Positions 16,885 to 56,547 of a stretch of DNA of 64,000 bases are shown piece by piece (position 1 is the stretch's first letter; each line of letters starts with the position of its first letter). The stretch is from a virus. The stretch covers positions 33,319 through 97,318 of IMG/VR virus record IMGVR_UViG_3300032893_000017; one strand, given 5' to 3'. Position numbers and translations under genes: made by a program. The notes under the pieces were generated by a model. It ran no database searches, had not been told where the DNA came from, and was given only the letters and a program-made list of their open reading frames with translations.

Positions 16885-17327
16885 TATTCAACTCCTTGAC
16901 TTATTTGTTGGTCTAAAATAGCATCATAATCCAAGTCTCCATTTTTATTTTCTATCTTTCCTGTTTCAATACTTTTAATCTTAAAATTATTTTCTTTCTC
17001 TTCCTTAAATACCTCTACTTGTTCTTTTGGTCTTTGTATTACAGGAATCTCTCCACCTAAGGAACTTCCAATAATTGTTATATTCTTACCTGCATGTATC
17101 TTTAATAATCCAAATAGTTCTTTTTCCAAATTACTAAATTCTTCTCTACATGCCTGCTTTTCTTTTTCTTTATATACTTTATAGATATTCATTATTCTTT
17201 CTGTTCTGTCAAACTTGTTTATTCTTTTTAATATCTCATAAAGTTCTTTTTCTTGTTTATTTTTTAAATCAAAACTAAGAAATACTTTTCTTCTAATTAT
17301 TTTTTTCTTTTCCAATTTTTTATCCAA
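16884..17327 (-). CDS. ParR-like DNA-binding adaptor candidate
   Basis: 147 residues. The N-terminus (RRKVFLSFDLKNKQEKELYE, then LKRINKFDRTERIMNIYKVY) fits a ribbon-helix-helix followed by helices, the pattern of ParR-type adaptors. A disordered acidic tail ends in DYDAILDQQI, which could contact the actin-like filament. It is the second gene after the actin-like ATPase, matching parMR order with one extra gene between. I infer that it binds a centromere and links it to the filament. No centromere repeats were recognised nearby, so the call is tentative. Confidence 0.55.
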   Translation of the reverse strand: MDKKLEKKKIIRRKVFLSFDLKNKQEKELYEILKRINKFDRTERIMNIYKVYKEKEKQACREEFSNLEKELFGLLKIHAGKNITIIGSSLGGEIPVIQRPKEQVEVFKEEKENNFKIKSIETGKIENKNGDLDYDAILDQQISQGVE

Positions 17328-17613
17328 AATATTTCTTAATATTTAATAATTTATTTTTTAGAGTAACTACTTTTAATTCTAATTGATCTCCGGAATCTTT
17401 ATACACTTCTTTCAATATCATTTCACTTTTATTTTTAGCATCTAATATCTCTGTATCTGACATCTTTTTCATCTCTTCTGGACTTTTATAAAATGCTCCT
17501 AACATCATTCCAGTTATAGATAGCATTCTAAACTTTCTAGCTGATTCAATACCTTCCAAACCTTCCATCAACAAATCAAAATCTTCTTTAGTAAAATTTA
17601 AATCACCTGCCAT
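17320..17613 (-). CDS. Hypothetical protein between ParM- and ParR-like genes, 97 aa
   Basis: I start at the ATG at 17613, which has AAGGACT upstream and touches the ParM stop. Helical protein (NFTKEDFDLLMEGLEGI, EILDAKNKSEMILKEVY) without a known motif. Its position suggests an accessory role in segregation. Confidence 0.55.
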   Translation of the reverse strand: MAGDLNFTKEDFDLLMEGLEGIESARKFRMLSITGMMLGAFYKSPEEMKKMSDTEILDAKNKSEMILKEVYKDSGDQLELKVVTLKNKLLNIKKYFG

Positions 17614-17614
17614 A

Positions 17615-18664
17615 TTAAAGTCCTTTTTTATTCCATACAAACTTTCTCATAAGCAATTTTATTATTCCTCTAGCATTACTAAAAACTGGATCCTCAATTA
17701 CTTCTAGAGTAGAAAAAAGCTTTTTCATTGTTTCTCCAAACAAATAAGTTCCACCACCTGTATACAAAATCTTATCAGGAGTATAATCTCCAAAATCTTC
17801 CATTATCTTATTTTTCAAATTCTCTAATATCTTTACCAAGGCATCTTGAACAAGATAACTTAAATCTATATTCACTCCATTCTTATTTATTGATTTATTG
17901 TGCTGGATTATATCTTCTATCTCTAAAGTTGTTTTTTTTATATTGTATTGTCTATATAATTGCTCTTTAACATATTTATAGAATTTTTCTGTTCCTACTT
18001 CATAAGCATAGTTCTTAAGAATTCCTAATTGATTTATCAATAATGTATTTGTTGTCTTTCTCCCTGTTCCAACAATTAAGTATTGCAATTTTACTTTCTC
18101 TTTAATGATATCAAACTTATTGTCTATACAGCTATCCATTAGTGATACCCACTCTTGGTACCATATACCTACTTTTACTATTTCAAATTTCTTTGTTGAA
18201 ACTATTTTTCCAGCAGTATTATAAAAATCAACTGTCCATTTCTTTTTAAGTATATTTCTTATTTCTTCTTCTTTATGTATATTATCTGCTGTTAGATCTA
18301 ACCCTACTATTATTTCTTCATTCTCGTCTTTAACAAATCTAGCAACAGAAATTAAAGTATAATTTATACTATGCTCCAGATATACTTCATCTACAGTAGC
18401 ATATTGAATTTCTTCTGGAGGAAATAATTTATCACAACTTTCTCCATAAGCAATTGGTCTTCCTTTATTTATTGCTGCTATTATATCATCGTCTTTTATC
18501 CAATTTAATGTTGGTGAATATTTTAAGTATCTAAAATCCACATTTGCATATTTAGCATCAAATCTTTTTCTTTCTAATTTATCATTCAAATTTTTGCTCT
18601 TACAATTCTCATTATAATAAATAGATTTTATTCCATCTCGACCACAGTCTACAGCAATTAACAT
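17615..18664 (-). CDS. Actin-like ATPase, ParM/Alp type
   Basis: 349 residues, the usual ParM size. Phosphate-1 motif is visible at the N-terminus (LIAVDCGRDGIKSIYY), a central VGTG turn follows, and the adenosine motif is ILYTGGGTYLFG near residue 310. Family members polymerise with ATP and push apart low-copy plasmids or position phage DNA. It is followed by a small gene and a ParR-like gene. A phage with such a cassette may be maintained as a plasmid, or may use filaments to centre its DNA. ATPase fold is well supported; the exact role is inferred. Confidence 0.8.
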   Translation of the reverse strand: MLIAVDCGRDGIKSIYYNENCKSKNLNDKLERKRFDAKYANVDFRYLKYSPTLNWIKDDDIIAAINKGRPIAYGESCDKLFPPEEIQYATVDEVYLEHSINYTLISVARFVKDENEEIIVGLDLTADNIHKEEEIRNILKKKWTVDFYNTAGKIVSTKKFEIVKVGIWYQEWVSLMDSCIDNKFDIIKEKVKLQYLIVGTGRKTTNTLLINQLGILKNYAYEVGTEKFYKYVKEQLYRQYNIKKTTLEIEDIIQHNKSINKNGVNIDLSYLVQDALVKILENLKNKIMEDFGDYTPDKILYTGGGTYLFGETMKKLFSTLEVIEDPVFSNARGIIKLLMRKFVWNKKGL

Positions 18665-27304: not shown

Positions 27305-27465
27305 TACTTTCTATTCTCCAATACTTTTTGAACTTCTTCTTGACTACATTCTTTCAAAAACTTCTTTCCTTTTCTCCTAAAATATTTTGGAGCCAAATCT
27401 TCTCCATTTTTATTTCTTCTTATTCCATATATATTTTGCTGTGATTTACTTTTTCCTGCTGCCAT
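27304..27465 (-). CDS. 53-aa basic protein ahead of recA
   Basis: ATG 27465 after AAGGAG; stop overlaps the recA start. Basic peptide (MAAGKSKSQQNIYGIRRNKN, then PKYFRRKGKKFLKE). It could be a small DNA-binding accessory. It is the first gene after the hairpin at 27481-27583. Confidence 0.55.
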   Translation of the reverse strand: MAAGKSKSQQNIYGIRRNKNGEDLAPKYFRRKGKKFLKECSQEEVQKVLENRK

Positions 27466-27480
27466 TTTATCTCCTTAATA

Positions 27481-27583
27481 AAAAAATAGTGTAGATTGGA
27501 AGGTAAACAACCAATAACAATTAGTTTCTATTATTTTAAGACATTATAGCTAATTGCTTCTCATCCAACAAGACTACACTATT
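27481..27583 (-). terminator. Large stem-loop with U-tract between ssb and recA genes
   Basis: Outer stem AATAGTGTAG (27485-27494) with CTACACTATT (27574-27583), inner stems TTGGA/TCCAA (27496-27500 with 27564-27568) and CAATTAG/CTAATTG (27518-27524 with 27550-27556). On the minus strand the 3' arm runs into seven U's, then the ribosome site of the 53-aa gene. It could attenuate or partly terminate transcription after ssb. The loop is much larger than in ordinary terminators. Confidence 0.65.
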
Positions 27584-27588
27584 AGATC

Positions 27589-28617
27589 TTAAAACTCATC
27601 GTCTTCTTCGTCTTTTTTCTTAGAACTTTTCTTTACTTTTCCTATAGGTTTCTTTTTTCCTTTATCTCTATTAACTTTCTTTCTTGGTTGCTCTTCTACT
27701 TCATCCTCAAATTCATCTTCTACAGAATCTGTTTCGCCATCGTCATCTTGTATTTCTTCTTCTGGCTCATCTTCAAAGTCATCGTCCTCAAAATCATTAT
27801 CCTGTTCTTCCTCAACTTCCTCATCTTCAAACTCTACTTCTCCAGATAAAAATTCCTTCATGATTTTTTTAACTTCAGCATCTGTTTTATAATAAAATGT
27901 TTTATCTATATCAGGTAAGTCTCCTTCTGCTTTAGGACTTTTACTTATCTTATCGCATGGAACAATTTCTACAGGTGTATTCTGTTTTGTCACTTCACCT
28001 TTTGGAGCTTCTTTAACAAACATCAAATTTCTATTAACCAAATCATCCGATGTTTTCATAAAGGAGTATTTCTCAAAGATACTTAATGTAAGCTTATCAA
28101 ACTGTATCTTTGATAACTGTAATATTTTAGGCTGTGTTTCCCATTCTGGAACATACTCTACAATAAAACCTTTCTTTGTTTTTATCTTTTCTTTTACTGC
28201 TTCTCCAGCAACAGCAACAAACTTTGTAGTTTGTTTTGTTATCAACATCTTTCCTTGCTTTTTCATTTCGTCAATTTCCATTTCAAGTTGCTTTGCTTTT
28301 TTAGCATCGTTTTTTTGCTTTAATATTTCTACTTTGTCTTTTAATTCCTTAATTGGATCCCAGAAATGTTCTTTTGCTACTTGACAAGCAGGACAAGAAT
28401 CTGGAGCATAACCTTTACTCTCCAATCCCCCTAAACAAACAAAAGAATAAAACTTCTTTCCTATTTCAAAAGAATGAAGAAATTCAGAAACAAACTCTTT
28501 TCCTAGAAGCCTTACAAAAATCCTTCCTTTTTTAAACTTAATATAGCTGTTCTTCCCTCGATCCCCTGCATGGGAAGTTGAATCTATATCTTTTTTATTA
28601 TCGATTGAACCTTTCAT
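27589..28617 (-). CDS. ssDNA-binding protein, gp32-like
   Basis: 342 residues. N-terminal basic/beta region (YIKFKKGRIFVRLLGKEFV), a zinc-like CLGG…DSCPACQVAKEHFWDP segment, a central Lys-rich helix, and a long Asp/Glu-rich tail ending in DDEF, as in T4 gp32-like and other phage SSBs where the acidic tail recruits replication partners. First gene after the promoter at 28.66-28.69 kb, ahead of recA. Assignment is from architecture, not a unique motif. Confidence 0.65.
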   Translation of the reverse strand: MKGSIDNKKDIDSTSHAGDRGKNSYIKFKKGRIFVRLLGKEFVSEFLHSFEIGKKFYSFVCLGGLESKGYAPDSCPACQVAKEHFWDPIKELKDKVEILKQKNDAKKAKQLEMEIDEMKKQGKMLITKQTTKFVAVAGEAVKEKIKTKKGFIVEYVPEWETQPKILQLSKIQFDKLTLSIFEKYSFMKTSDDLVNRNLMFVKEAPKGEVTKQNTPVEIVPCDKISKSPKAEGDLPDIDKTFYYKTDAEVKKIMKEFLSGEVEFEDEEVEEEQDNDFEDDDFEDEPEEEIQDDDGETDSVEDEFEDEVEEQPRKKVNRDKGKKKPIGKVKKSSKKKDEEDDEF

Positions 28618-45883: not shown

Positions 45884-46792
45884 TTATCTCCTTATTAAGT
45901 TTAAAAATTCATTTCTTACTTCTGTTTTTTCAAAAACCCCTCTAATTGCTGAAGTTGTCATTTCTGCATCTTGGGATTTTATTCCTCTTGATATCATGCA
46001 GAGATGCTTTGCTTCTACTAAAACCATTACACCTTTTGGTTGCAAATATTCCATTAAACAGTCAGCTATTTGTGCTGTCATTTTTTCTTGTATCTGTAAC
46101 CTTCTAGCAAATATTTCAACAAGCCTCGCTAACTTACTCAAACCAATAACTCTTTTATCAGGTATATATCCTAAAAAGCATTGACCAAAGAAAGGCTGCA
46201 AGTGATGCTCGCAGTTAGAATAGAAATTTATGCTCTTCAAAACCACCATTTCATTACATGCACCCTCTTCAAAAGTTGTCATTATTTCTTTTGGATCCAT
46301 TTTATATCCTGCATACAATTCATTCCAACTCTTTATTATTCTTCTTGGAGTTTCTTTCAATCCCTCTCTATTTGGATCTTCTCCAATATACTCTAATTGT
46401 CTTATTATATTATCTTCTATATCATTTTCTTTTTCAAATGGAAACTGTATCCATCTATCTATCGTTTCGACATAATAATCAACTTTATCTATATTTTTAT
46501 TTTTTAAAAATAAAACTGCTTTATCGTAATCACGAAACATTCCTAAAGTCTTTCCTGAATCTATCACATCGTCTATTATTAAAACTTCATCTTTCGGAAA
46601 ATCTATAACTTTATTTAAATCATTTTCAATTTCCAATTCCAAATATTTATTCATCTCTTGTGCAACAAATAAACCATTCTTTGGAATTGGATACAAATAC
46701 TTATATTTATCTTTAGATATTTGAAAAGCCAATATCCTACATAATCTTTTAAACTCTGGATAATCTATCTCATATTTATTAACTTGTGACAT
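45884..46792 (-). CDS. folE: Phosphoribosyltransferase-GTP cyclohydrolase I fusion
   Basis: ATG 46792 is preferred over the in-frame TTG at 46810, with GGAGG upstream. 302 residues: about 1-120 is a type-I PRTase-like domain with the PRPP loop VLIIDDVIDSGKT; about 121-302 is FolE, with GEDPNREGLKETPRR, NFYSNCEHHLQPFFG (Cys194, His196, His197), VIGLSKLARLVEIFARRLQ and KHLCMISRGIK (Cys265). FolE opens GTP to dihydroneopterin triphosphate, the first step to 7-deazaguanines. The fused PRTase could salvage a purine to GTP and feed the enzyme. Confidence 0.85.
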   Translation of the reverse strand: MSQVNKYEIDYPEFKRLCRILAFQISKDKYKYLYPIPKNGLFVAQEMNKYLELEIENDLNKVIDFPKDEVLIIDDVIDSGKTLGMFRDYDKAVLFLKNKNIDKVDYYVETIDRWIQFPFEKENDIEDNIIRQLEYIGEDPNREGLKETPRRIIKSWNELYAGYKMDPKEIMTTFEEGACNEMVVLKSINFYSNCEHHLQPFFGQCFLGYIPDKRVIGLSKLARLVEIFARRLQIQEKMTAQIADCLMEYLQPKGVMVLVEAKHLCMISRGIKSQDAEMTTSAIRGVFEKTEVRNEFLNLIRR

Positions 46793-47334
46793 TGTAAACC
46801 TAACCTCCAACCTTTTATATTCATAATCATATCAATAAATTCTTTTTTATTTGATTCTGGCTGTAAATAAAAATATTTTATTTTATAAAATTCTGAAACT
46901 TTATCTCTATAATAATTCAATTCTTTTATTTCTTGCCCATAATAAACCATTTTTAATTCATCACAAAATAACTGTTTGAAATCCCGATTTTTTGGACTTA
47001 ATGTTATCCAATCCAAATACTGCAAAAGATCATCTAACTTTTTATTTCCATTTGTTTCTAGAAATAAGTAATATTTATTTAATTTTAAAAATCTTAATAA
47101 ATCAACATCTATCTGTAATGTTGGTTCTCCTCCCGTTAAAACTATCTTGTCTGTTTCATATTTTTTAATTTCTTCCAAAATCATTTCCTTGGAGAACTGT
47201 GAACCTGCAAAATGGTCCGTATCACAATAACCACATTTCTCATCACATCCGGCAAATCTTAGAAATACACATTTTTCTCCAGTATTGGCACCTTCACCTT
47301 GAGCAGAAAAAAATATTTCATTTATTATATACAT
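46765..47334 (-). CDS. queE: 7-carboxy-7-deazaguanine synthase
   Basis: Start at ATG 47334, after GGAGGG and overlapping the previous stop as TAATG. 189 residues. EIFFSAQGEGANTG and the radical-SAM motif CDEKCGYCD (C-x3-C-x2-C), then IVLTGGEPTLQ, and a short C-terminus with KYFYLQPES are diagnostic for QueE. It converts the QueD product CPH4 to CDG. Encoded with FolE and QueD in the same operon. Confidence 0.9.
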   Translation of the reverse strand: MYIINEIFFSAQGEGANTGEKCVFLRFAGCDEKCGYCDTDHFAGSQFSKEMILEEIKKYETDKIVLTGGEPTLQIDVDLLRFLKLNKYYLFLETNGNKKLDDLLQYLDWITLSPKNRDFKQLFCDELKMVYYGQEIKELNYYRDKVSEFYKIKYFYLQPESNKKEFIDMIMNIKGWRLGLQCHKLINMR

Positions 47335-47666
47335 TAAATTACCCTCCATTCTTCAAGTGATACAAATATTTGCTTTTCATATCCTTGAAACTTCATTACC
47401 ATTCCTTTCTCTATAATCTCTTCTTTTGTTAAAGTATAATTATCAAACATTACTATATCTTTGTCTCTAAGTTTTTCCAGAATTAATTCAGAAACTCCAA
47501 ACATCTCCTCTCCAGTTATTCTATTCGTAAAAGATTGAGGATTGTTTTTAACATAGTATTTTATTCCTTTTCTTTCAAAGAAACTTCCTATCTTTCTTTT
47601 TCTACCATTTTCGTTTTCTAATTCTAAAAAAACATTATTGTCTTTTATTGTTAGTTTATTTGACAT
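47334..47666 (-). CDS. Hypothetical protein between QueE and QueD, 110 aa
   Basis: Beta-rich protein (NNVFLELENENGRKRKIGSF; NNPQSFTNRITGEEMFGVSE). No domain recognised. Its conserved placement between two pathway genes (TAATG overlaps on both sides) suggests a linked role. Confidence 0.6.
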   Translation of the reverse strand: MSNKLTIKDNNVFLELENENGRKRKIGSFFERKGIKYYVKNNPQSFTNRITGEEMFGVSELILEKLRDKDIVMFDNYTLTKEEIIEKGMVMKFQGYEKQIFVSLEEWRVI

Positions 47667-48046
47667 TAAAAATCTCCTACTTCTGCATAGGTCTTTTTTC
47701 CTACTGATGTCTCATAAAATCTAACTTTAAATTGAAGTTCAGAATTTCTATTTTTAAAAAACCTATATATATCCAAACATAAATTCTCTGCGGTTGGATT
47801 AATATTTTTATAATCTATATCCTTATTCGAACACTCATTCAAACATTTATGATCAAACTGTTCTTTTATTGATTTAATATTATTAAAATCAAAAAGCATT
47901 CCTGTTTCATTTAGCTGACTTTCATCTCCTTTAATCCAAAGTCTTATTAACCCTGAATGCCCATGGAGGTTTTTGCAATTCCCTTCATAGCCACGTAAAT
48001 AATGAGCATAGTCAATTACTGTCTCGGTGTAAACTGTTATTAGCAT
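47666..48046 (-). CDS. queD: 6-carboxy-tetrahydropterin synthase
   Basis: 126 residues, normal for QueD. Zinc ligands His15, His28 and His30 (DYAHYLRG; NLHGHSG) and catalytic Cys24 (GNCKNLHGH) are present, with LFDFNNIKSI, DHKCLNE and NPTAENLC. It makes 6-carboxy-tetrahydropterin for QueE. Its start lies inside the end of a 58-aa gene. Confidence 0.9.
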   Translation of the reverse strand: MLITVYTETVIDYAHYLRGYEGNCKNLHGHSGLIRLWIKGDESQLNETGMLFDFNNIKSIKEQFDHKCLNECSNKDIDYKNINPTAENLCLDIYRFFKNRNSELQFKVRFYETSVGKKTYAEVGDF

Positions 48047-51702: not shown

Positions 51703-52536
51703 TTACTCATATATCTTAAAATGTTCATTGTACAATCTCTCTTGATCTATATATTCGTTCTTATAATATTCCTTCGCCATGTTTACAATATTTGGATGGA
51801 AATAATTATATCCTTGTTGAATTTGCTTATCTATCTCTTCGTTCTTTTTACCTGAATAATCTGTTCCTTCAAATTCTATTATTTTTAAATATCTTCTTAA
51901 CAATGAACCTAACTGCATTTCTTTTTCTATTTCTTCTAGAGTAGAATTGGAACAAACAATTATAGTTTTACCAAGAGGAAGAAGGCTTCTAAAAAAAGAA
52001 TCTATTTTCTTTTTAAGTGGTGAATTTTCTTTCATCATTATCTTGTCTAGTTCATCCACAATTATAACATCTGAATTTTTTATCCTTTCAATTATTTGCT
52101 TATCGTCTGTAAAAGAATTATCTATAATGTTAGAAAGAAGATCGTAATAAACTTCTAGTCTTAATGTAATTGCTTTCTTTGCTAACTCACAAGCTACTGA
52201 AGTCTTTCCTACCCCTCTTGTTGCAGAAGCCAAAAATAAACCTTTACCATTTTCTATAGCGTTTTTAAAGTTATCATAATAAAGGTTTATTATAATTCTC
52301 ACTTTCTCATTTAAAGCTAGATTCTTTAAACTTAACTGCCAGTAATCTAAAGGAATGTTGGAATAGATTAAATTAGCTACATACCCCAATACTTGCATGC
52401 ACATACAGTGCATAAGACTGTGGTCCTTAGTATAGATATATCCTTCTCCATTACACTGCTTATGACTAAGAACTATTTTTTGCTTGATACCTTTCAGTTT
52501 AGCAATCTGTTTTTCACTCAATTCAAAATTAAACAT
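51703..52536 (-). CDS. DnaC/IstB-like helicase loader
   Basis: 277 residues, AAA+: GLFLASATRGVGKTSVACEL (Walker A), VIIVDELDKIM (Walker B), VCSNSTLEEIE (sensor 1) and SLLRRYLKIIEFEG. N-terminal zinc-like CNGEGYIYTKDHSLMHCMCM, as seen in many phage DnaC relatives. Loads the DnaB-like helicase at the origin. Confidence 0.85.
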   Translation of the reverse strand: MFNFELSEKQIAKLKGIKQKIVLSHKQCNGEGYIYTKDHSLMHCMCMQVLGYVANLIYSNIPLDYWQLSLKNLALNEKVRIIINLYYDNFKNAIENGKGLFLASATRGVGKTSVACELAKKAITLRLEVYYDLLSNIIDNSFTDDKQIIERIKNSDVIIVDELDKIMMKENSPLKKKIDSFFRSLLPLGKTIIVCSNSTLEEIEKEMQLGSLLRRYLKIIEFEGTDYSGKKNEEIDKQIQQGYNYFHPNIVNMAKEYYKNEYIDQERLYNEHFKIYE

Positions 52537-53770
52537 TATTCCCCTCCGTCTCTTTTATCAATCTAAGCTTAACATTTTTTAAATATTCTTTTTTATTATT
52601 TGTTATAATCATAATTTTATTTTTGTCATCAAAACTAAATGCTCCATCTTCTGTATATTCTTTAAAAAATTTGTAAGTCTCATCATCTATTTTTTCTGAA
52701 CCTGTATTATTGCTTTTTAAACTTTTGTAAGCTAATTTTAAAGAAGGAATTCGTTCTTTATCTGAATAAAATTTCATATCATCATCATACATTCTTTCTT
52801 TTCTACGAAGTCCTAATTTTATCCATTCTTCATCTGTCATATCTTTTCCATTTGAACGGTATTTCTTTTTTGAGGAATCTAAAGAGGATTTAAATCCTTT
52901 TAAAAAATCATTAAGACAAAAATGAAGGAATCCTAAATTAAAATTATCACACGGTCTTATTTTGTTTTTTAAAAACCATTTTATAAAACTATCTAACTCT
53001 AAATTATTATTCTTTAATTCATCTAGCAAATCAAGAACATAATTTTGATCTTTTAAAGTATATATTATTTCTCTACGATTTATTCCTTTTGTATGTGACA
53101 TCCATCTAGGATGGGCTAAACAAACTTGATATATATATTTCCATTTTTCTATAGCTTCTTTATTTATGTTAAATTCTATATTAGACTTTTTAAAATTCAA
53201 TTCTTTTTTTGTTTCTAGAGGAATATAGTTCTTTTTATATTCAACGATATTGAAATCTTTTATTTTTTCTAAAATAGAGTTTTTCTTATTAACTGAGTTA
53301 ATGTCGTTTACTGTATCAATACTTATATTATTCTTTACTATACTATCTTTATTTATATTAGTTTCTTTATTAGTATTAGTATTAGTATTAGTATTAGTAT
53401 TAGTATTGTTAGGGTAAACGTCGTTAACTGAGTTAATGCAGTTTACTCGGTTTTTAATATTCAATAAAGTGTATTGATTGCTCACATATTTTTGATGGTT
53501 TTTGGTTTTAATTTTATCTATTTTAATTATATTCTTTTCTACTAGATCTTTTAAAGAAGAAACTACTTTTGGTTTTGAAGTTTTACATTTTTCACATATA
53601 TACTTTAAAGAAGGAAAGCAAACACTTTTATCAGACATTCTAACCAATAAACAATATATTTGAAATGTATAACAATCTAATTTAAAATCAAAAATCTCAT
53701 TATCAATTATAAAAAAATTCTGTTTTCTTTCGTCTTTTACAACTATAACACTATCTAAATTTCCTCTCAT
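52529..53770 (-). CDS. Replication initiator-like protein with winged helix
   Basis: 413 residues. N-terminal winged helix: NEIFDFKLDCYTFQIYCLLV, CFPSLKYICEKCKTSKPKVV, KNIIKIDKI, as in phage and plasmid initiators and DnaD-type proteins. A linker of alternating Asn and Thr (about residues 123-135) is encoded by a hexanucleotide repeat. The C-terminal part (KWIYQVCLAHPRW and similar) is helical. It heads the initiator-loader-helicase-primase series and follows a structured leader, so I infer origin recognition. The exact family is unclear. Confidence 0.65.
   Translation of the reverse strand: MRGNLDSVIVVKDERKQNFFIIDNEIFDFKLDCYTFQIYCLLVRMSDKSVCFPSLKYICEKCKTSKPKVVSSLKDLVEKNIIKIDKIKTKNHQKYVSNQYTLLNIKNRVNCINSVNDVYPNNTNTNTNTNTNTNKETNINKDSIVKNNISIDTVNDINSVNKKNSILEKIKDFNIVEYKKNYIPLETKKELNFKKSNIEFNINKEAIEKWKYIYQVCLAHPRWMSHTKGINRREIIYTLKDQNYVLDLLDELKNNNLELDSFIKWFLKNKIRPCDNFNLGFLHFCLNDFLKGFKSSLDSSKKKYRSNGKDMTDEEWIKLGLRRKERMYDDDMKFYSDKERIPSLKLAYKSLKSNNTGSEKIDDETYKFFKEYTEDGAFSFDDKNKIMIITNNKKEYLKNVKLRLIKETEGNNV
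53369..53404. repeat. Hexanucleotide tandem repeat, six ATTAGT units
   Basis: Six perfect ATTAGT copies inside the initiator gene. On the coding strand they encode alternating Asn-Thr. The unit is a multiple of three, so slippage would change linker length without breaking the frame. Confidence 0.9.
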
Positions 53771-53786
53771 ATATTTTCCTCTAGAA

Positions 53787-53934
53787 AATAAAAAAGCACT
53801 ATTTAAGACCGTTTATCAATACAATTTTGCATTCTTGTTCGGGGAGGAACAATATGACGGACTGTATTGGGCGGTCTTAAATAGTGCCTCTAATATAATT
53901 TAGCCGTCATTTGTTATTCCCTCCCCCCAAGATA
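53787..53934 (-). ncRNA. Structured leader RNA / attenuator of the replication initiator
   Basis: Between a promoter at 53940-53968 and the initiator ATG. A 16-base perfect stem (53796-53811 with 53872-53887) is extended by CAATAC/GTATTG (53817-53822 with 53864-53869) and holds a TTGTTC/GAACAA hairpin (53835-53852). On the minus strand the 3' arm is followed by a U-rich run, so it acts like a terminator. In addition the loop segment 53841-53860 is nearly complementary to 53904-53926 outside the stem (ATGACGG with CCGTCAT; GGGGAGG with CCTCCCC), allowing a pseudoknot or switch. Could be a separate small RNA or a leader controlling initiator expression. Family unknown. Confidence 0.65.
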
Positions 53935-53939
53935 TTTCA

Positions 53940-53968
53940 AATATAAAATATTGCAAAATAAAAGTAAA
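53940..53968 (-). promoter_or_regulatory. Promoter of the replication-initiation module
   Basis: Minus-strand TTTACT (53963-53968), 17-base spacer, TATATT (53940-53945). Start expected near 53933, just before the G-rich arm of the leader. It differs from the TTGTTACAA family. Confidence 0.55.
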
Positions 53969-54012: not shown

Positions 54013-54444
54013 TTAGATAGGATTTTTATTAAAGAATTTATTGTAATAATTAAAGTCTTTTTTCAATAATAATTGTTGGTGTTTTGTACAAAATTCTTCT
54101 GTTAAATGCTCAGGTATCCAATTTTCATCTAGTGAAATAAATAAAACATGCCATTTATCAAAGTATTTAAATAATCTCTGACATTTGTGTTCTTTGTTTT
54201 TTCTTTTTTTATATTCATAAAGAATAAAAAATAAATAATCAACTAAATATAGTAAGCCTTTGTAGTCATAATATAATTTTGTTGTAGGATGATTATAAAT
54301 ATATTTTGGAATTTTCCATCCAACATCTACCTTAGTATTTGCTGATAATATCTGTATCACTTCAATAATTTGTTTTGCGAGTCTGCGATTATCTAAGCAA
54401 CGAGCAGTTTTATATGGTTGAACGTAAGGTACAAAAATTTGCAT
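54013..54444 (-). CDS. Pyrimidine-dimer DNA glycosylase family protein
   Basis: Start at ATG 54444, with AAGGATC upstream, gives the family N-terminus MQIFVPYVQPYKTARCLDNR, followed by RLAKQIIEVIQIL and IYNHPTTKLYYDY. This is the DenV/Pyr_excise-like pattern (MQxFxPY…LDxxRLxKQ…HP). 143 residues. It would excise UV dimers in phage DNA. A GIY-YIG gene directly upstream starts with a similar MQVFMPY string. Confidence 0.75.
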   Translation of the reverse strand: MQIFVPYVQPYKTARCLDNRRLAKQIIEVIQILSANTKVDVGWKIPKYIYNHPTTKLYYDYKGLLYLVDYLFFILYEYKKRKNKEHKCQRLFKYFDKWHVLFISLDENWIPEHLTEEFCTKHQQLLLKKDFNYYNKFFNKNPI

Positions 54445-54454
54445 CTGATCCTTC

Positions 54455-55267
54455 TTATATTTTGATGGATAGATGACCTCTTCTATTATGGCCACGATAA
54501 AATAATTTATTGCATTTTAATCCACAACCACATAAACATGCATCTTGCATTTTTCCAATCCTATTCCATTTTTGTTGTTTAGTTACATATATCCTACCAC
54601 GTATTTTTAACATTCTTTTTTCTATATGTTCTCGTGATTGGGATTTACCTAACTTTGCTTTTCTTAATTTTTGTCTATGCTCTTCACTTTTTTGTTTACC
54701 TTTATGCAAGTTGCTTAATTTCAGCTTATGTTCCTCTGAAAATTTTTTCCCTTTATGAGATTTACTCATTTTTTGTCTAGTTGATTTTGATACTTTAGTA
54801 TTTAATAACGCAGATATTCTTTCCCCTGTTTTATATTTTTCTTTTAATGTTTTACTGATTTTGTTTTTAAAATCTTCTGATCTTTTCCTGTTTTTTAGTT
54901 TTTGTCTTATTTTTTCTTTTGTATCTTCTGTTAATTTTTTACCTTTATTTTGGCCACCGTTATTGCCTAGTCCACCAAGACCTATATTATATAATATGTG
55001 TCCATTTTGTTTAAAATATTGAATCCAGAATCTTTCTAAAAAATTTAAATTATATCTATATGAAATATTTAAAATTTCTTTTATAAAATATTTATTCCCA
55101 TACTTTTTAATTGCTCTCTTTATAATTTTTCCTGAACCATAATACTCTTTAGTTTTAAGAGGTAGCCTTTTTCTTTGTCCTATATAGATTTTATTATTAA
55201 TTAAATTTGTAATTTTATAAATGTAACCTAACTTATCGGAATTTGCATAAGGCATAAACACTTGCAT
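54455..55267 (-). CDS. GIY-YIG homing endonuclease with NUMOD3 repeats
   Basis: 270 residues from ATG 55267. GYIYKITNLINNKIYIGQRK is the GIY-YIG core, with a later IKKYGNKYFIKEIL and ERFWIQYF. Residues about 120-240 hold several NUMOD3-type repeats (S-x-E-H-x-x-K-L and KGKKFSEEHK), and a C-terminal zinc knuckle CLCGCGLKC with RGHNRR. Such enzymes are mobile genes that cut a target allele. The first residues MQVFMPY copy the start of the neighbouring glycosylase, suggesting insertion near that gene's 5' end. Confidence 0.85.
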   Translation of the reverse strand: MQVFMPYANSDKLGYIYKITNLINNKIYIGQRKRLPLKTKEYYGSGKIIKRAIKKYGNKYFIKEILNISYRYNLNFLERFWIQYFKQNGHILYNIGLGGLGNNGGQNKGKKLTEDTKEKIRQKLKNRKRSEDFKNKISKTLKEKYKTGERISALLNTKVSKSTRQKMSKSHKGKKFSEEHKLKLSNLHKGKQKSEEHRQKLRKAKLGKSQSREHIEKRMLKIRGRIYVTKQQKWNRIGKMQDACLCGCGLKCNKLFYRGHNRRGHLSIKI

Positions 55268-55287
55268 ATTCTTTTCCTGTAAATACA

Positions 55288-55923
55288 TTAAAATCCTGTG
55301 GTTGTGGTTGTTGAGCTTGTTCCACCTAAAAATTGAAAATTAGTCCATTGAGTATTTAAATCTTTATCTATTCTGTATTTGTATTCTTTTAGGATTTCTA
55401 ATGCTTCTTCATGATGTTTTATTTTCTTTTCTAGCATTGAAATAGAATTCTTATTTATGTCTACTTTTTGGTTTAGGCTGATTGTAAATATGTTATCTTT
55501 TTCTTTGTGTTGTATTCTACAAATCATTTCTTGGATATTACTGTTTGATTTTCTTATCTTGTCTATTTCATTTTTGAAGTTTTTTGTTGCTGTTTCTATT
55601 GTATCTTTCATCAGCTTAAATACATCTCTTGTTTTGACATTATCCACAGACATTAAAACTGCTTCAAATATATTTGCTAATATTTCTAATGGAATTGACT
55701 GTTCACTTCTTGCTGACTCGTCTATCTTTCCAGTTTCGTCGTATATTTTCCGTGTTATTGGATTGATTAAAGTTTTGTAGTATTTATTTGCTTTTTCAAA
55801 TTCTTCTCTATTTCCATTTGCATCCGGATGTGACTTTTTTGCTTTTCTACGATAAGCTTTTTTAATATCCTTTTCAGTTGCATTTTTCTTTAGTTCAAAA
55901 AAATTATATATCTCGTCTTTCAT
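55288..55923 (-). CDS. J-domain (DnaJ-like) protein
   Basis: 211 residues. N-terminal J domain: DEIYNFFELKKNATEKDIKK, then AYRRKAKKSHPDANG, with the HPD motif, then FEKANKYYKTLINPITRKIYDE. The rest is helical coiled coil and a Ser/Thr/Gly tail. It could recruit host DnaK to phage assembly or replication complexes. Confidence 0.85.
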   Translation of the reverse strand: MKDEIYNFFELKKNATEKDIKKAYRRKAKKSHPDANGNREEFEKANKYYKTLINPITRKIYDETGKIDESARSEQSIPLEILANIFEAVLMSVDNVKTRDVFKLMKDTIETATKNFKNEIDKIRKSNSNIQEMICRIQHKEKDNIFTISLNQKVDINKNSISMLEKKIKHHEEALEILKEYKYRIDKDLNTQWTNFQFLGGTSSTTTTTGF

Positions 55924-56102
55924 TTTATTTTCCTTAATTCTTTATCTAGTTTATCCAAAACTTCTTTAACTGAAGTTACAACCATAATTATTTTTTCTTT
56001 TATTTTTACAGTAACAAGTTTCTTTTCTTCATGTGTAATATAAAAAGAAATACTTCCTTGGTGCTTGGAAAGGTATCTTAATAATCTTTCATATTTTTCC
56101 AT
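55920..56102 (-). CDS. Hypothetical protein, 60 aa
   Basis: EKYERLLRYLSKHQGSISFYITHEEKKLVTVKIKEK: a small alpha-beta protein, overlapping both neighbours. No family recognised. Confidence 0.5.
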   Translation of the reverse strand: MEKYERLLRYLSKHQGSISFYITHEEKKLVTVKIKEKIIMVVTSVKEVLDKLDKELRKIK

Positions 56103-56301
56103 TGTCTTTTTCTCCTTTCAATAAATAGTTGTATTTTCTAAAGTGGTCTTCACAAGCATATTTAATGAATGCGGACATTGATATTCCTCTAAGTTCTGAA
56201 AGTTCTTTTAGTTGTTTTTTGAAGTTTGTTGAGATGGCAATCAAAATACGTTGTTCTGTTGAATTCTTTAAATAATTTCTATACCACTTTCTCTTTTCCA
56301 T
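56089..56301 (-). CDS. Ribbon-helix-helix-like protein, 70 aa
   Basis: RILIAISTNFKKQLKELSEL, then RGISMSAFIKYACEDHFRKY, is the strand-helix-helix pattern of Arc/CopG repressors. First gene after promoter E; a likely DNA-binding regulator, perhaps autoregulating that promoter. Confidence 0.7.
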   Translation of the reverse strand: MEKRKWYRNYLKNSTEQRILIAISTNFKKQLKELSELRGISMSAFIKYACEDHFRKYNYLLKGEKDNGKI

Positions 56302-56379
56302 AATTTAAATAAAGAGGGAAGGAAAAAGGAGTTATCTATTTCCAAAACCTTCCCTTGAAACAAAAATTTTACTAATTAA

Positions 56380-56411
56380 ATTATATAACTTTTCTATTGA
56401 TTTTGTAACAA
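56380..56411 (-). promoter_or_regulatory. Conserved phage promoter, copy E
   Basis: Minus-strand TTGTTACAA (56403-56411) and TATAAT (56380-56385), 32-base span as in the other copies. It lies in the only sizeable intergenic space, 56302-56584. Apart from this promoter and the terminator at 56548-56574 I see nothing else in that space. Confidence 0.75.
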
Positions 56412-56547
56412 AAAACAGCTCTTTTTTAAAGATTTTTGGTTAAATAGTATAGTTTATACTGTTTCTGGATTTATCGTTTAAAAAAGCCTATTTATAAGGG
56501 GATTTAGAGGGTATTTTTTGGGTGGTTTTGACTACTGTTTTGAGGAT

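Follow-up and report, generated by a model that had tools for sequence, protein, structure and literature searches.

The mRNAs of IncI-alpha/IncB repZ and of T4 gene 32 are controlled by pseudoknots, and in these cases the pseudoknot acts on translation. In pT181 repC and pIP501 repR, the leader of the initiator gene carries a transcription terminator, and masking of an upstream antiterminator strand lets this terminator form (PMC4878617, PMC4981023). Where a ribosome on a leader ORF controls attenuation, the position of the ribosome selects the structure that is adopted (PMC12121999). Here we describe the leader of a phage replication operon that resembles each of these systems in part. With pT181 and pIP501, it shares a terminator and an upstream antiterminator strand in front of a replication initiator; with the leader-ORF attenuators of bacteria (those of amino-acid operons, the uORFs of antibiotic-response genes, toiL), it shares a short ORF, a strong ribosome-binding site and competing structures; and with the pseudoknotted mRNAs, it shares a replication-gene leader in which a loop pairs with a distant strand. 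However, pT181 and pIP501 are small plasmids, whereas the carrier here is a phage of 97 kb, and in contrast to the pseudoknotted mRNAs the hairpin, with its U-run, would act at the level of transcription. We propose, with a probability that we put at roughly 0.4, that this leader is a transcription attenuator of the replication operon, a lineage-specific two-state RNA switch whose likeliest trigger would be a ribosome on the upstream strand (segment A in Table 1). A search of the literature, incomplete in its coverage, turned up no phage replication operon under such control.

The window, i.e. the whole stretch of DNA that was analyzed, comprises the last 64 kb of a virus record of 97,318 bp. 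The window has a G+C content of 28%, and almost all of its genes are carried on the minus strand. Its terminase belongs to phrog_675 and is distant kin of the SPO1-like phage terminases; the virus is an unclassified bacterial virus whose lineage is divergent, and no close relative in culture was found for it. The element under study sits in a gap of 242 bp. On one side of this gap is a gene for a pyrimidine-dimer glycosylase (54013-54495), on the other the initiator gene, whose ATG is at 53770 and which is followed by genes for a DnaC-like loader, a DnaB-like helicase and a primase. Between a ribbon-helix-helix gene (56089-56301) and the initiator lie the leader and 2.3 kb of cargo, consisting of a 60-aa ORF and genes for a DnaJ-like protein, a GIY-YIG endonuclease and the glycosylase. 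The GIY-YIG/NUMOD3 homing-endonuclease ORF (54455-55288) starts with MQVFMPYANSDK, which resembles the start MQIFVPYVQPYK of the next gene, the glycosylase, and it looks as if the endonuclease had been inserted in the 5' end of a glycosylase gene. Inside the initiator gene, two 24-bp repeats that are 92% identical and occur nowhere else in the genome (53289-53312 and 53424-53447, the second copy partly palindromic) bracket a run of hexamer repeats (about 53362-53410), and together these form a candidate replication origin within the initiator gene, as in lambda O. Farther along the window, translations judged by eye indicate queuosine/deazaguanine-pathway-like genes at 46765-48046 (QueD-like, 47666-48046; QueE-like radical SAM, 46765-47349), which possibly serve DNA or tRNA modification.

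Table 1. Features of the initiator leader, in the order of transcription
Feature	Positions	Strand	Remarks
Promoter-like site, TTTACT-17-TATATT	53940..53968	-	Direct reading; 9/12 consensus bases; predicted start near 53933
Segment A, GGGGAGGGAATAACAAATGACGG	53904..53926	-	Proposed antiterminator strand; pairs with C; also bears Shine-Dalgarno and start of the leader ORF
Leader ORF, ATG ACG GCT AAA TTA TAT TAG (MTAKLY*)	53890..53910	-	Predicted; six codons; stop codon abuts the terminator stem
Segment B, 5' arm of the 16-bp terminator stem	53872..53887	-	100% complementary to D
Inner helices of the terminator fold	53817..53869	-	Minimum-free-energy fold; compete with A:C for C
Segment C, CCGTCATATTGTTCCTCCCC	53841..53860	-	Partner of A; inside the terminator loop
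Segment D (53811-53796), 3' arm of the stem, then U6 (53795-53790)	53790..53811	-	Direct reading; predicted intrinsic terminator
Initiator ribosome-binding site, AGAGG	53771..53789	-	Partly within a small hairpin AUUUUC/GAAAAU; Shine-Dalgarno -6.1 kcal/mol
Replication initiator gene	52529..53770	-	413 aa; HTH_36, DnaD_N-like; phrog_270; proposed regulated gene

The hairpin formed by B and D, together with its U6, is the strongest hairpin-plus-U-run that was found in the genome (-42.4 kcal/mol). Its stem (53796-53811/53872-53887) is perfect over 16 bp and reaches 20 bp in the fold if G-U pairs are included, so that a stable hairpin of 16-20 bp is directly followed by a U-run on the transcript strand, the form of an intrinsic terminator. 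The stem encloses inner helices of 9 bp (53869-53861/53825-53817) and 6 bp (UUGUUC/GAACAA, 53852-53847/53840-53835), and the apical loop, CUCCCC, lies inside segment C. A previous sequence-only reading of this DNA had noticed the perfect stem, the two inner helices and the U-run, all of which we recover to within one base. Both strands fold stably because the element is built of inverted repeats; no U-run follows either stem on the plus strand, and since the minus strand alone has a U-run behind the stem and also encodes the initiator, it is the functional one. The previous reading had named no strand.

The same reading had proposed that the loop can pair with a segment outside the stem, and this pairing holds: A and C form two blocks of 7 bp with partial pairing between them, and the duplex of flank and loop has an energy of -33.8 kcal/mol. 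Since the CUCCCC loop is complementary to GGGGAG in A, there are two options, either a long A:C helix that replaces the inner helices or a loop-only pseudoknot on the finished terminator. The helices A:C and B:D are interleaved, with essentially no bases common to both. This differs from pT181, where the antiterminator pairs with the 5' arm of the terminator, whereas here A pairs with the terminator loop. The C-rich tract CCTCCCC is atypical of a transcript strand that holds 11% C, and neither A nor C has a second copy in the genome, GGGGGAGG occurring once.

To judge these helices against chance, we compared them with shuffled sequences and with the rest of the genome. The fold of the leader has a z-score of -4.2 (minus strand) or -5.4 (plus strand), and among all 130-nt windows of the 97,318-bp record the leader is the most stable on both strands. 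Shuffles that kept the composition of flank and loop, their unusual G and C tracts included, matched A:C in 5/2000 and 2/1000 cases. In a local-helix scan of the minus strand of the whole genome, in which 30-nt segments were paired with nearby downstream segments of 60 nt, B:D ranked first (-35.7 kcal/mol) and A:C second (-32.3 kcal/mol), followed by -23.7 kcal/mol at the next place elsewhere; the two lead everything else by about 8-12 kcal/mol. That the two top-ranking local helices of a 97-kb genome should interleave with each other makes chance unlikely, and the structure of the leader is real and non-random.

A non-random structure of this kind might nevertheless belong to the DNA, as an origin cruciform, a recombination site or the relic of a mobile insertion, and not to an RNA switch. 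Interleaved inverted repeats beside an initiator gene, the candidate origin repeats nearby, the homing-endonuclease gene close upstream and the absence of the element in relatives (see below) would all suit such an element, yet the six U follow the stem on the transcribed strand only, the genome holds no second copy, and the viral and genome collections contain no real copy of the perfect stem. Used as a DNA pattern, the perfect stem had no match in viral contigs; one match, in a genome contig of a spirochaete, was rejected as chance, being inside an ORF in a GC-rich region and having only the patterned bases in common. We consider a DNA-level element quite improbable. At the level of RNA families, no Rfam entry reached its gathering score, riboswitches, T-box and ribosomal-protein leaders included, and the best sub-threshold matches were far below the cut-offs, in keeping with the earlier statement that no known RNA family is recognized.

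Only 19 nt separate the U-run from the initiator ATG, which leaves no room for a promoter, and the initiator must therefore be reached by readthrough. From the sequence, this readthrough must originate either at the local promoter-like site or at an upstream one, e.g. near 56409-56380. The local site had been called a plausible promoter; it is present, but such sites show no enrichment relative to shuffles (104 found, 92 expected), and by itself it weighs little.

The behavior of the two helices during transcription was approximated by folding growing prefixes of the transcript, the energies being equilibrium values on these prefixes. A:C forms once C has emerged (-30.5 kcal/mol at 53840) and prevails to 53798, when just two or three bases of the terminator stem are still to be made; the terminator takes over at 53796, the point at which the stem has all its bases, and is fully formed by 53794. 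The alternative structure is thus comparably stable and delays the terminator in prefix folding, as in an attenuator, which supports the earlier suggestion of competing or pseudoknotted structures in a terminator-bearing leader before the replication initiator, which we find to be of the phrog_270 type. The finished terminator is better than A:C by about 7 kcal/mol at equilibrium, hence antitermination would have to act by kinetic control. We infer that a preformed A:C could outlast the short passage of RNA polymerase, with D unable to wind the B strand that A:C encloses, and that A:C would in this way exclude the terminator in real time.

The order of events that we propose is as follows. RNA polymerase starting near 53933 would make A, then B, then C, and then D with the six U. 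If A is left free, the emerging C would at once pair with it, and B would be enclosed in a closed loop. Because A:C and B:D share essentially no bases, D could not displace A by branch migration, and while RNA polymerase is still on the 3' end, D could not wind fully round the enclosed B; the terminator would then be delayed or blocked and the initiator gene would be transcribed. If A is occupied during the synthesis of C and D, the terminator would form immediately and transcription would halt before the initiator. In the folding calculations, masking of 53930-53897, corresponding to a ribosome on the leader AUG at 53910, lets the terminator prevail from the first bases of D, and a mask that represents a ribosome at the leader stop codon lowers the mean B:D pairing to about 0.5 at the decision point.

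Given that the finished RNA adopts the terminator fold at equilibrium, the leader might also be read as a constitutive partial terminator, at which most transcripts from the upstream cargo end and a fixed fraction reads into the initiator, with A:C merely tuning or insulating and nothing being sensed. The upstream genes lie on the same strand, there is no other terminator-like site from 55.9 kb to the initiator, and hairpins with T-rich tails are also found right before start codons at 57143-57110, 56353-56315 and 27583-27485. A terminator before an ATG is hence not special in this phage, and partial terminators may be one of its habits. However, a plain terminator requires neither a long alternative helix nor the genome-rare G-rich and C-rich tracts, and flank-loop pairing at the two other testable hairpins is within the range of shuffles (161/1000 and 239/1000, compared with 2/1000 here). 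This sets the initiator leader apart; flank-loop pseudoknots as a phage-wide design were rejected on the same two hairpins, and a purely constitutive terminator seems to us unlikely. On inspection, no leader ORF was seen at the other hairpin leaders. In the leader of the ribbon-helix-helix gene (56280-56440), a promoter-like GTTACA-18-TATAAT is followed by a GGGAAGG/CCTTCCC hairpin, whose T-rich tail directly precedes the ATG, with no clear Shine-Dalgarno. At 27465-27592, a large hairpin (AATAGTGTAG/CTACACTATT) with a U-run lies right after a stop codon at about 27590 and precedes a small ORF (about 54 codons) together with its ribosome-binding site.

An attenuator that switches on the state of segment A calls for something to occupy A. 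The leader ORF is short, its Shine-Dalgarno is placed to affect the switch, and A covers its initiation region, the G tract serving A:C as well as the Shine-Dalgarno. The Shine-Dalgarno duplex (-13.2 kcal/mol) is the strongest among 2454 minus-strand ATGs, but once the G tract is given, chance alone would place an ATG at a suitable distance in 12-15% of cases. The plus-strand mirror also reads as a Shine-Dalgarno with an ATG (MTDCIGRS*), which is implied by the A:C pairing. As A spans the Shine-Dalgarno, the start codon and the next bases, its likeliest occupant would be an initiating ribosome, the most natural ligand of A. Unlike the leader-ORF attenuators of bacteria, the six codons here have no run of regulatory codons, and the target is a phage replication operon. 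An ORF of this length also bears no coding signal. Since the antiterminator strand would be none other than the ribosome-binding region, initiation and not stalling would be sensed: brisk initiation on the leader would result in less transcription of the replication genes, and poor initiation in more.

The relatives that could be found carry no such leader. Neither phages nor viral contigs yielded a close relative of the initiator. Scans with one protein at a time, the helicase or a structural-region protein, returned none, and the terminase as query returned fragments that do not include the replication region. A scan with degenerate helicase motifs yielded three related contigs, in which the helicase is about 41% and the loader about 42% identical. 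The leader is absent in both contigs that can be read upstream of the initiator (2 of 3). In these two, the order is a lysozyme-like gene, a terminator-like hairpin, a promoter-like site, a ribbon-helix-helix-like gene, initiator, loader and helicase, and the ribbon-helix-helix-like gene and the initiator nearly touch, with no structured leader between them. Genomes scanned with a profile yielded no relative, and a homologue of the leader was not found in any of the searches. As the relatives are without the leader, and cargo and leader intervene here, the leader looks lineage-specific, and it may have given the initiator a promoter and control of its own after insertion of the cargo.

These gene orders also bear on the possibility that the gate is a protein. 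In that case a phage protein, be it the initiator, the ribbon-helix-helix protein (56301-56089) or some other, would bind A or the pseudoknot and thereby autoregulate, much as T4 gp32 controls its own mRNA. The element adjoins the start of the initiator, proteins could plausibly target a pseudoknot that has a G-rich strand, and a small ribbon-helix-helix gene lies upstream; but the relatives retain the pair of ribbon-helix-helix gene and initiator without the leader, and no RNA-binding domain is seen in either protein, so that a protein gate appears improbable.

The likeness to the plasmid systems raises a further alternative to a ribosome-operated attenuator, namely antisense control of the copy number, in which a plus-strand RNA would bind A and the terminator would form. 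The arrangement of antiterminator, terminator and initiator gene follows the same logic as in pT181 and pIP501 (PMC4878617, PMC4981023), and the plus strand folds very stably as well. This stability, however, follows from the inverted repeats, no convincing promoter for such an RNA lies within the leader, and an antisense RNA gene of the pT181/pIP501 type was not recognized, either among plus-strand terminator-like sites, of which the region has none, or through second copies of A or C, which the genome lacks. Antisense control of this kind is very improbable. Of the earlier suggestion of a copy-number control or attenuation RNA, the attenuator layout stands, whereas plasmid-type control finds neither an antisense unit nor a second copy of A; the leader ORF and the operon setting had escaped that reading. 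The case for a plasmid-like state with ParM/ParR, which had also been suggested, is weak: at 17320-18664, an actin-like ORF (349 aa) has ParM/MreB matches that are sub-threshold in Pfam, and its small downstream partner gave no ParR match and belongs to no recognized family.

Control of the type that we propose is familiar; its setting is new. A more specific and more doubtful proposal, with which we would go further than the attenuator as such, is that the phage couples its replication to the translation-initiation capacity of the host, the ribosome-binding site of the leader ORF being the antiterminator strand, and that the antiterminator is topological, a pseudoknot-type structure that encloses the 5' arm of the terminator instead of competing for its bases. 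Since this geometry separates antitermination from base competition, the leader could show whether pseudoknot topology alone blocks a terminator during transcription. If the proposed reading is right, it would offer a compact, testable example of a phage whose decision to replicate is governed by RNA attenuation.
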